Below are positions 13,915 through 20,203 of a DNA stretch of 64,000 nt, piece by piece. Every line of letters begins with the position of its first letter. Position 1 is the first letter of the stretch. A program made the translations under genes and the position numbers. The notes under the pieces are model-generated. The model was given only the letters and a program-made list of their open reading frames with translations, ran no database searches and was not told the origin of the DNA. This DNA is from an uncultured cyanobacterium (GTDB lineage Bacteria; Cyanobacteriota; Cyanobacteriia; PCC-6307; Cyanobiaceae), in assembly GCA_913047395.1 (NCBI GenBank), contig CAJWUF010000002.1, forward strand, positions 1 to 64,000, in the 5' to 3' direction.

Positions 13915-15338
<1,424 letters not shown>

Positions 15339-15405
15339 ATAAGTTGAGGCTGAACTGATTTAGATAATTGCTGATCAGCATGTTCACCAGCCTTTGAATG
15401 GGCTC

Positions 15406-15560
15406 TTAGCTAAAAGATAAGCAGAAATGATGCACAGTTTTAATGCAGCTTGCTGCAACATCAGCTCCTTCTAACTTGAGATTGCCTGTAGTGAGCTATC
15501 TCCTTGAACTTTTGCCAGGAAAGCTTTGAGTTGTTCTTCTGACAGACAGGTGAACTTTGC
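15406..15560 (-). pseudogene. Degenerate Nif11/ProcA-type lanthipeptide leader fragment
   Basis: Minus-strand translation LAKFTCLSEEQLKAFLAKVQGDSSLQA, then an apparent -1 frameshift into LKLEGADVAA...; matches the ProcA leader pattern MSEEQLKAFxAKVxxDTSLQxxLKxEGADV. Confidence 0.75.
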
Positions 15561-15568
15561 CAATTCTT

Positions 15569-16282
15569 CTATAGCTCACTATCGCACTGATGTTTACCCA
15601 GATGGAGATCGGCACTCTTTTCGCCAATGAACTTCTTAAGATCTTCTGGCGGCAGCCAACGTCTATTAGCCCCATTTTTAAACGCGAAGCGAAGGAATTC
15701 TGCTGCGTACTGGATGCGAAGTCGTCGACTTGTTGAACCGGGTTCTCCTCCGTGAAGTTCGACAAGTGTTTTTAAAAGCGTGTACCCGTTGGTTGGTCCG
15801 GGGTTGCTTGTGAGAATGAGCACTGTGCGTGCAATTGGTGTGCGGTAGTTACGGTTCCAAACCCTGGCTCCCTTCATGCTGTTGTTTGTTTTATGTGATT
15901 TGAATTTTCTTAGTAGTCGTTCCCAATCAAGTTCGCTACCGGAACCGGACTCTTTCCTCTGCTTCACGATCTCGTAAGCCTCAGCCAATCCCTTGCCCTG
16001 CTCTTTCATCACCTGCAAGATTTCACTCGACATGTTCACAATCCAGCCAGCGCTTGTTGCCGCCCACGGAATGAAATCGGGATCATTCTTTGCCTTGGCA
16101 CCAAGGATGATGCTGGTGCGGGTGCCATCGTCGAAACGAACAGTCAGCTGAACCCTTTGGACAAGGCCGTCACCGATGCCGCGAACCATCCAGCCATCCC
16201 CACAATCCCGTCTGACCCCGTCACGTAGAGCAGTGATCCATTTTGCTGACTTATCGGCCATTGAAATCCTGTCGGGCGACAA
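15569..16282 (-). pseudogene. Truncated tyrosine recombinase / phage-type integrase (N-terminal and core-binding region only)
   Basis: LDWERLLRKFKSHKTNNSMKGARVWNRNYRTPIARTVLILTSNPGPTNGYTLLKTLVELHGGEPGSTSRRLRIQYAAEFLRFAFKNGA resembles integrase SAM-like regions; no R..HxxR..Y catalytic domain follows. Confidence 0.65.
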
Positions 16283-16373
16283 GCTGTCGGAAATTTCTTG
16301 TCAATTCAACAGCCTCACTGCTGCTTACTCAAGTGTTGGGAATTTAGCTTTGGCCTAGTAAGCAGACTATTAA

Positions 16374-17843
16374 CTATCTTGCTGCCTGGGTTGCAAAGGC
16401 AATCGCAGCTTCCCCGCGCCGGTGGATCTCGGTAGCGTAATTGGTCCAGGTGCCCTGGCCCCAATAGCGAAAGCAACTGGTCTCCAGCAGTAGTAAATAG
16501 AGAAGAGCTTCCTGATAGTGAGAGGTTTGGGTTACCGCAGGATCTTGAATTAGCAAAGGATCAAATACCTGGTGAAATTTGGCGCTAAGTCGGTTTATCG
16601 GTTCTAGAACGTTCTCATAGCCTTCAACCCAGCTGAGGTTGTTGGTCCAAGAAGCTCCGGCCATCGAGAAGGAGGGATCCATAACTTTGAGTTCAGTGAT
16701 GGCCGCTTCGATTGATTCTGGGGTAATTGTGCTAGCGACTTTTTGCCACACCTTGTGTTGCTGTACCGCCTGAATCATCGGGTAATCAGCAGGCTTGACA
16801 CCAGCGGCCTCTAGCAATTCCAGATACTCAGTAGCGTTGATCGGAACTGTGCCCTCACCATCAGCCTTAGAAGCGATGGTCTGATGAGCTTGGATAAAGG
16901 CGTTTGGAAACTCATTCATCATTACGCCGCCATTTTCTCCATCAGCAATTTGAGAAACCAATGATGGAATCGTTGTCCTACCCAACGATTGCCTTGCCAG
17001 CCCTAATGCTTCGTAATAGGGCTGCATCTGCCCCACCAACTTGGTATCTGAGCCCTGGGTTTTAATCAGCGCCGAGATGCTTACTGTTTCCCCTCTGGAA
17101 TTGCGCGCCACAAGTTGATTAGGGACGTATTTCTGCTCGTGGCTAAGGCTTGAACCATCGAGTTGTTCAACGCTATCTTCTTGAACCAGTAGCCAACGGT
17201 ATCCACAATCATTGAGGGCCTTCACCAATTCATAGAGAGTGTCTGGATGGTTGGGAAGGTGCATCTCCGGGGGAGAGAAACCCTTCACCCGTTGCAATAC
17301 TTCTGACCCAAACATCTCAGCAAACTGATGTTGCCAAGCCAGGATCTGCAGCTTCAGATCTGGGATAGGAGTTGAGGGTGCAACAGCATGACTCCAGAAG
17401 GTGCCAAGCCATTCAACGTGGGGTTGTATGGAAGGATCGCAGGTGAGATATTTCAGCGCATCGAGAATGTCGCGTCGACCCATTTGCTCAACACCCCAGA
17501 GCAAATTACCTGAGTAATCCAGCATGATCCGAGGATTGCATCCTTCTCTAATCAGTTGGGGAATAATTTCAGCGAGGCGCTTATAGCAATTAGCAAAGGG
17601 CTCAGCGTTGTGATTATCGCCCTCTTCACTGTGCTCCAACATGTATTGCAGATGCGAGATAAGCTCTCCATTCGGCCCGGCTGGAATCGTGGGCTGATGC
17701 ATGTGCAGAGCGCAGGCAAAAGCTGACTGAAACTTCTCCAGGTTCAGATTGCTCTGCTTTAGGAAAACAGGACCGGCTTGCTTTACCAGGGCAAGAATCT
17801 CAGCTTCGCGGCCAGCTATCGGCGGCAGGGCATGACTGGCCAT
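16374..17843 (-). CDS. Glycoside hydrolase family 57-like protein
   Basis: ALHMHQPTIPAGPNGELISHLQYMLEH...LDYSGNLLWGVEQMG...EWLGTFWSHAVAPSTP...GFSPPEMHLP. Confidence 0.8.
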   Translation of the reverse strand: MASHALPPIAGREAEILALVKQAGPVFLKQSNLNLEKFQSAFACALHMHQPTIPAGPNGELISHLQYMLEHSEEGDNHNAEPFANCYKRLAEIIPQLIREGCNPRIMLDYSGNLLWGVEQMGRRDILDALKYLTCDPSIQPHVEWLGTFWSHAVAPSTPIPDLKLQILAWQHQFAEMFGSEVLQRVKGFSPPEMHLPNHPDTLYELVKALNDCGYRWLLVQEDSVEQLDGSSLSHEQKYVPNQLVARNSRGETVSISALIKTQGSDTKLVGQMQPYYEALGLARQSLGRTTIPSLVSQIADGENGGVMMNEFPNAFIQAHQTIASKADGEGTVPINATEYLELLEAAGVKPADYPMIQAVQQHKVWQKVASTITPESIEAAITELKVMDPSFSMAGASWTNNLSWVEGYENVLEPINRLSAKFHQVFDPLLIQDPAVTQTSHYQEALLYLLLLETSCFRYWGQGTWTNYATEIHRRGEAAIAFATQAAR

Positions 17844-18320
17844 CTACTTTTATCTACAATTTAATCATATCGCACCACATATAGTGCATTGTTCACTTGC
17901 ATTGCACTATCTATCACAAACTATTCAGAAGGCGATTGACTGAAGGCAAGCAGGCATGACTTGGCCAACAATGCTCCTCGTCGCTCGCGGAAACTACCGA
18001 TAGGGATATTAATTAACAGGCGGCAATAGCAAAATACTGGCTTCAGCATGATGGTGACATTCAGTACAGCCTTTAAGGATTGGCGAAAGAGATAGAGATA
18101 TTTTTAAGAGCCAAGAAGTTTATGATTGGATTTACCATATTGAGCAATGCTTGCCAAGATAGAAACCGGTCAATCGAAGGAGTATATGTATATTTAAGTC
18201 AAAATATTGATAGATTCTGATGGTCATTAAGACAGGATATCCTTGCAGCAGTGAGTCAACCTGACCCACTCAATCATCAATGTGAATTGAAGAATTCAAA
18301 TTAATATTTTGCAAATTGCT

Positions 18321-18587
18321 TTAATTAGTCGAAACATGACAACACCAGAAACTATCTCCCATATCGGTTATCCCTTCTACACATTTCCCACCACCAACTG
18401 CACTTTCAAGCTCCTTAGTTGAGAGCTCAGTTGAATGAGAGTCGATGTCTTCAGCTGTAATCGGAAATCCTGCCTCATTAGCGATTGCAATAGCTGAATT
18501 ACCATCCGAAGCAGCCTTTGGCTTTCCCTGCAGAGTGGTGTCTTGCTTAACCTTGGCGATAAATGCCTTGAGCTATTCTTCTGACAT
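18321..18587 (-). pseudogene. Prochlorosin-type (ProcA) lanthipeptide precursor with an in-frame TAG at codon 5
   Basis: Minus strand: MSEE*LKAFIAKVKQDTTLQGKPKAASDGNSAIAIANEAGFPITAEDIDSHSTELSTKELESAVGGGKCVEGITDMGDSFWCCHVSTN*; Nif11-like leader, GGG cleavage motif, Cys/Ser/Thr core. Confidence 0.88.
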
Positions 18588-18871
18588 CAGATATTGACTT
18601 CTAGCTCAATCTTTAGCTCTCCCTGGTTACTGCTCAAATGAAGTCTTTGAAACAGCTTACCGCAAAATGCAGGCAAATAAAATCAGCGTGGGTTGCCGCT
18701 AAGTAAAGACAGGAGTTTATTTTTAGAATAATGAAATTTGCACGCTATAGGCTTAGATATTGCCAAAAGGTATTTTGCAAGGTCGAAATAGAGGGATTAA
18801 ATGACAAGCAATCTTCACCATCTCCGCTCGCCGAAATCTCTGGTATTTAAAAGAATCAAAACCATTTGCGT

Positions 18872-20203
18872 CTAACTCTCCATCGCTTCAGTGCTTGATG
18901 CTGCTGCTGAGGTGAGCAGCTCATACCCCTGCTCACTCACCACCACATCATCTTCAATGCGGATGCCGATCCCCTTCCATCGCTCCTCAATCATTGGTTG
19001 CCCTTCGGGTGCTGGCAGACGATCACTGAGATAAAGGCCAGGTTCAACCGTTAGCACCATGCCAGGCTCAAGATCTACCGGGTGCTCACCCAAGCGATAG
19101 GCACCGACATCGTGAACGTCCAACCCCAACCAATGGCCAGTGCGATGCATATACATATGGCGATAAGCACCCTGCTCGATCAATCCATCAACACTGCCAG
19201 CCAATAAACCCAGTTCCACAAGTCCTTCGACAAGTACGCACACCGCCCGATCATGCACCTGTTCAGCAGTACCTCCCGGTCGCACCTCAGCGATCGCTGC
19301 CTGCTGTGCTGCTAACACCAGCTCATAGAGAGCCCGTTGCTCAGCATTGAAGCGACCATTAATCGGGAAGGTACGCGTGATATCGCCGTTGTAGTAATCA
19401 ACTAGCGAGCAGCCCGCATCAATCAGCACCAGCTCACCATCAACAAGTGGGGCATTGTTAGCCGTGTAGTGCAGCACGCAGGCGTTATCGCCACCGGCCA
19501 CGATTGATCCATATGCAGGGCCTCGAGCGCCTTGCTCAAGGAAATACTGCTCGATCACCGCCTGCAGCTGTCGCTCATTCATGCCCGGGCGCGCCAGATT
19601 CCTAGCCAGCTCATGAGCCTCTGCCGAAATCCGAGCCGCTTCACGCATCCGCTCTAGTTCCTCGGGCCCTTTTTGCAACCTCAACTGATGCAACAACGGG
19701 CAAGGGGCCACAAGGCCAAGAGCCGAAACGCCACTGCGCGGCGCCCGATCTAGCTGTTGAGCCCAAGCGCTCAGCACCAACGGCTCCACCTTCGGGTGCT
19801 TGCCCACTCTGAAACCAATAGCCTCAGCACCTTTGAGGTAGTCAGCTAGCAGTTGGGGTAATTCAGCCAAAGGATGAGCAATATCAGCCCCAAAGCGCGT
19901 CACCGCTCCTTCCGCACCCCATCGAAAGCCATTCCATACTTCTTTACTGGCCTGCTTGGCTTGCACGAAAAGCACAAAGCGCTCACCTTCAGGCCGATGG
20001 GGCAGAAACAAGGCCACCGCATCAGGCTCATCAAAGCCGGTGAGATACCAGAAATCACTGTTCTGGCGAAACGGATACTCACAATCAGCATGATGAGTCA
20101 CCAATGGAGCCGCCGGAATCACGGCTGCCACGCCCCCCAATTTCGCCAAAAAACGAAGCCGACGTTGATAAAAAATAGACAGATCGATCACGGCCAGAGA
20201 CAC
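18872..20203 (-). CDS. pepP: Xaa-Pro aminopeptidase (aminopeptidase P)
   Basis: PFRQNSDFWYLTGFDEPDAV; LIDAGCSLVDYYNGDITRTFPINGRF; HRTGHWLGLDVHDVG. Confidence 0.93.
   Translation of the reverse strand: MSLAVIDLSIFYQRRLRFLAKLGGVAAVIPAAPLVTHHADCEYPFRQNSDFWYLTGFDEPDAVALFLPHRPEGERFVLFVQAKQASKEVWNGFRWGAEGAVTRFGADIAHPLAELPQLLADYLKGAEAIGFRVGKHPKVEPLVLSAWAQQLDRAPRSGVSALGLVAPCPLLHQLRLQKGPEELERMREAARISAEAHELARNLARPGMNERQLQAVIEQYFLEQGARGPAYGSIVAGGDNACVLHYTANNAPLVDGELVLIDAGCSLVDYYNGDITRTFPINGRFNAEQRALYELVLAAQQAAIAEVRPGGTAEQVHDRAVCVLVEGLVELGLLAGSVDGLIEQGAYRHMYMHRTGHWLGLDVHDVGAYRLGEHPVDLEPGMVLTVEPGLYLSDRLPAPEGQPMIEERWKGIGIRIEDDVVVSEQGYELLTSAAASSTEAMES

Follow-up and report, generated by a model that had tools for sequence, protein, structure and literature searches.

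A short sequence on the minus strand between an HAD gene (14544-15338) and pepP (18872-20203) raises the question of whether it is a dead copy of procA and, if so, what became of the peptide system to which it belonged. Prochlorosins are cyclic peptides produced by some ocean cyanobacteria, and ProcM is the prochlorosin synthetase, the enzyme that modifies ProcA peptides. The locus lies in a window of 64,000 nucleotides, the whole stretch of DNA that was analysed (contig CAJWUF010000002.1 of assembly GCA_913047395.1), and a preliminary description had interpreted 15406-15560 as a decayed ProcA leader fused to the end of an integrase fragment. We favour, with a probability of about 87%, the reading that the sequence is a recently dead, 3'-truncated procA, that it is one of several substrates decaying after loss of ProcM and that a rearrangement joined it to the neighbouring ORF237 (Table 1).

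Table 1. Features around the procA relic and the other procA copies of the genome
Feature	Coordinates	Strand	Remarks
No procA homology detected	15340..15450	-	nothing left of the second leader half, GG motif or core
ProcA leader relic (Nif11-type, TIGR03798)	15451..15542	-	leader codons 2-32; profile, TIGR03798 and DNA matches
Lost start codon	15543..15545	-	CTG; ATG, GTG or TTG in intact copies
Retained procA upstream (promoter-like) DNA	15546..15593	-	ungapped match; CTATAG box
ORF237	15569..16282	-	stand-alone conserved protein; matches N-terminal ~215 residues of tyrosine-recombinase-like proteins
Permuted-pair junction	16343..16373	-	single hybrid, degenerate copy of 26-nt direct repeat
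ORF489 (489-aa gene)	16374..17843	-	GH57-like by eye; no Pfam or NCBIfam match
Second ProcA pseudogene	18321..18587	-	complete leader with GGG and core (KCVEGITDMGDSFWCCHVSTN), interrupted by TAG at codon 5
Third procA pseudogene	C4:564 (L083 564-752; contig C4 of this genome)		ATA for ATG, TAG in leader, TAA soon after GG

Identity of the relic and its lesions

At the DNA level, positions 15456-15544 find matches in dozens of procA loci across three sister genomes, G001, MIT 0701 (G002) and AG-412-I05 (G003), the best of which is an intact sister procA (86% identity over ~90 nt, E 3.2e-21). When aligned locally, with frameshifts allowed, to a profile made from the ProcA proteins of sister genomes (37 intact sequences), the relic scored 73.1 bits (64.5 bits without a frameshift), and the NCBIfam model TIGR03798 (Nif11-type RiPP leader) recognized both the first frame alone (E=1.3e-5) and the two frames joined (3.1e-6). 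This similarity covers the N-terminal half of the leader only. Like the ProcA precursors of Prochlorococcus MIT9313, the relic combines the leader pattern SEEQLKAFxAKVQxDxSLQxxLKxEGADV with the procA upstream DNA and with scattered loci; unlike them, it is frameshifted, has no start codon, GG or core and lies in a genome in which ProcM was not found. Judged by these comparisons, the stretch is a ProcA/Nif11-type leader, the front end of procA, in a dead copy, and the profile, TIGR03798, Nif11 and DNA matches all bear out its original identification as a ProcA leader relic.

Several independent inactivating changes in a sequence of this family mark the copy as a procA pseudogene. First, CTG occupies 15545-15543, the position at which intact sister copies start with ATG, GTG or TTG. 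Second, the leader frame is interrupted: from 15542 to 15451 the minus strand encodes SEEQLKAFLAKVQGDSSLQA followed by NLKLEGADVAA, one nucleotide having been deleted near 15481, after leader codon ~21, so that the reading passes from LAKFTCLSEEQLKAFLAKVQGDSSLQA to LKLEGADVAAS... only with a change of frame. Third, procA homology ends at ~15451, and neither the double-glycine site nor a core with Cys, Ser or Thr follows. The missing ATG, the single-nucleotide frameshift and the lost GG motif had each been anticipated correctly. Single-base lesions could individually reflect sequencing or amplification errors; against such a reading, the relic carries several independent lesions and has lost its 3' half. 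It makes no prochlorosin. No homology was demonstrated for 15406-15450 (SCIKTVHHFCLSFS), which may not belong to the procA gene, and the idea of a core hidden within it was rejected for want of homology in sister DNA.

Homology also extends upstream of the leader. Positions 15593-15482 align without gaps to intact procA and its upstream DNA on contig C7 of AG-412-I05 (L051) and contig C36 of MIT 0701 (L054), and the upstream DNA common to the relic and these intact genes includes ACATCAG..CTATAG. The interval first assigned, 15406-15560, does contain the relic; its borders require correction, since upstream homology reaches 15593 and procA homology stops at ~15451.

procA copies and ProcM in the genome

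A DNA search with intact procA revealed exactly three procA-leader loci in the assembly, and all three are broken. The ProcA-like neighbour already noticed at 18.3 kb is a full-length copy with TAG at codon 5, which resembles the relic in family, strand and broken state but retains, unlike the relic, the full leader, GG and core, and has a leader of a different subtype (AASDGNS versus EGADV). The genome's remaining genes with a Nif11 domain (C43, C51 and C4:6002) have open frames and belong to other kinds. That the two relics form a cluster, as had been suggested, found no support: they lie on either side of a cassette of two genes, in an interval that has been rearranged, and the third dead procA sits on another contig.

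In this assembly (86% complete, 151 contigs), ProcM was found neither with PF13575 (DUF4135) nor by tblastn with the ProcM of G001, and the procM surroundings of G001 (~23 kb) have almost no counterpart in it. These genome-wide statements on procA and ProcM rest on sequence searches of the assembly. ProcM is present in G001, MIT 0701 and AG-412-I05, and leader matches without internal stop number 38 in G001 and 21 in MIT 0701, both near-complete sisters. The core peptides of G001 include AACHNHAPSMPPSYWEGEC, which we take to be prochlorosin 2.8 of MIT9313. The ProcM of MIT9313 has been described as modifying 29 ProcA substrates (PMC10783134). On the basis that three of three procA loci are broken and that ProcM went undetected, the simplest reading is that the three loci are orphans which have decayed because ProcM was lost or absent, and the earlier proposal of a decayed orphan is strengthened accordingly. 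We infer the following course of events: this low-light, LLIV-type Prochlorococcus genome would have lost its ProcM synthetase, upon which its procA substrates would have decayed. Of the copy studied here, the leader survives as far as codon ~32, along with the DNA upstream of it; the rest of the leader, the cleavage site and the core are gone.

As the assembly is 86% complete, ProcM or an intact procA could lie in the missing part, and the prochlorosin system might still work with a ProcM and other procA genes encoded in the unassembled 14%, the relic being a casualty of routine birth-and-death turnover. Leader matches containing internal stops in AG-412-I05, which carries ProcM, and the scattering of procA copies over variable islands would fit such turnover. 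We nevertheless consider a working system unlikely, because three of three procA copies are broken here versus 0 of 38 (G001) and 0 of 21 (MIT 0701) with an internal stop, and because the procM island is almost without counterpart.

A literature search, whose hits did not include a 2017 PNAS study reportedly devoted to prochlorosin evolution, returned no paper on procA pseudogenes or on procM loss. Taken alone, the relic is an ordinary pseudogene. Three dead copies together with a missing ProcM would offer an example, found in nature, of a prochlorosin system being lost by a strain closely related to a producer, and such a loss could be used to ask whether precursors decay without the synthetase and hence were under selection.

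Residual coding capacity of the relic

Over 19 in-frame codons the relic departs from the intact copy closest to it (L041, 4679) at seven sites, six of them third positions, which for a stretch this short suggests that the relic was constrained until recently and that its death is recent. The prevalence of third-position substitutions, the retained upstream DNA and the GTG and TTG starts of sister copies at the same position could also be taken to mean that the remaining open reading frame is translated from TTG at ~15560 or CTG at 15545 into a Nif11 leader-like peptide of 25-30 aa with a role of its own. We regard this as very improbable, as such a peptide would have neither GG nor core, its frame stops at ISS* directly after the frameshift and no orthologue of the short form was found. 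That the resemblance reflects chance or a generic helix motif with no relation to procA, a suspicion that the mere 20-32 matched residues and a Pfam Nif11 score of 23.1 for the first frame alone (slightly below the curated cut-off) might raise, is ruled out for practical purposes by the DNA identity of up to 86% over 90 nt, the upstream DNA in common and 150 dinucleotide shuffles, which scored 12.8 ± 1.9 bits against the ProcA profile (maximum 20.8), so that the relic clearly surpassed the shuffled sequence proposed beforehand as its yardstick.

ORF237 and the rearranged HAD-pepP interval

The frame of ORF237 (roughly 217-244 codons) has conserved counterparts in 30 further genomes of the family, at 63-81% identity (E<1e-90), and comparison with MIT 0701 gave dN 0.11, dS 0.59 and dN/dS about 0.19. 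By these measures ORF237 is under purifying selection and of normal length for its family, so that, of the label "integrase fragment", the notion of a decaying truncation falls. What remains is a match to the N-terminal half of tyrosine-recombinase-like proteins of 412-450 aa: distant relatives are mostly 412-460 aa long, and in the four long relatives that were read (e.g. L123, L124 and L126) the N-terminal ~215 residues align with ORF237 at 29-38% identity. The C-terminal part of these proteins contains GLRxxEL, SLRHxxA, MGHS and Tyr motifs, which on visual inspection point to a tyrosine recombinase; Pfam gave no integrase match for the long relatives and NCBIfam only weak tyrosine recombinase matches. 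Unlike them, ORF237 is without the C-terminal motif part and conserved as such. ORF237 and its relatives L111-L122 and L128-L131 keep the N-terminal half, devoid of the catalytic domain, as a stand-alone gene; ORF237 may possibly be a domesticated integrase half. A phage gene was also considered and rejected (phage records gave no match and PHROG none that was convincing). The structural model of ORF237 had low confidence (pLDDT 57), and Foldseek searches were uninformative.

The fusion between ORF237 and the relic is real. Homology of ORF237 to its sisters runs as far as 15605, and the match to procA upstream DNA sets in at 15593; the last ~9 codons and the TAG stop of ORF237 have therefore been replaced by procA upstream DNA, which now supplies them. 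The surrounding HAD-pepP spacer is rearranged, and in that rearrangement the relic became attached to ORF237 at its 3' end. In G001, HAD and pepP lie side by side, 1.2 kb apart, and everything corresponding to ~15341 to 18790 is different; in MIT 0701 and AG-412-I05 the two genes sit on different contigs. The syntenic comparison that had been recommended yielded no intact allele of the relic in any of the three sisters, the G001 spacer being without procA. That spacer encodes a 70-aa Cys-containing small ORF (L065 2246-2458; MSTNLLGQPLSQALLRQINGG...) with no NCBIfam match, possibly another peptide precursor.

All three sister genomes pair ORF234 with a following ORF490, the counterparts of ORF237 and ORF489; in G001 and AG-412-I05 the pair has arsR and a GAPDH-type gene beside it, and in MIT 0701 it is flanked by a 26-nt direct repeat (92%). 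Here the order is reversed, 489 preceding 237, such that the pair is circularly permuted relative to the sisters. The permuted order and the single repeat copy at the junction match the outcome expected if the repeats had mediated an excision or a duplication. The ORF489-ORF237 cassette has a procA copy on each side, both in direct orientation, which suggests insertion by crossover at procA, and the relic shows that procA copies occur at rearrangement borders. A more far-reaching and quite unlikely scenario is that scattered procA leaders act as recombination sites and that an ORF489-ORF237 circle, formed across the 26-nt repeats, entered the HAD-pepP spacer by a procA crossover, which would leave the permuted pair between two procA pieces in direct orientation. 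After the HAD gene, a 14-nt inverted repeat, CAAAGGCTGGTGAA, occurs at 15326-15339 and 15383-15396, and the segment between its copies resembles the HAD downstream sequence of G001 in inverted orientation, a possible micro-inversion.
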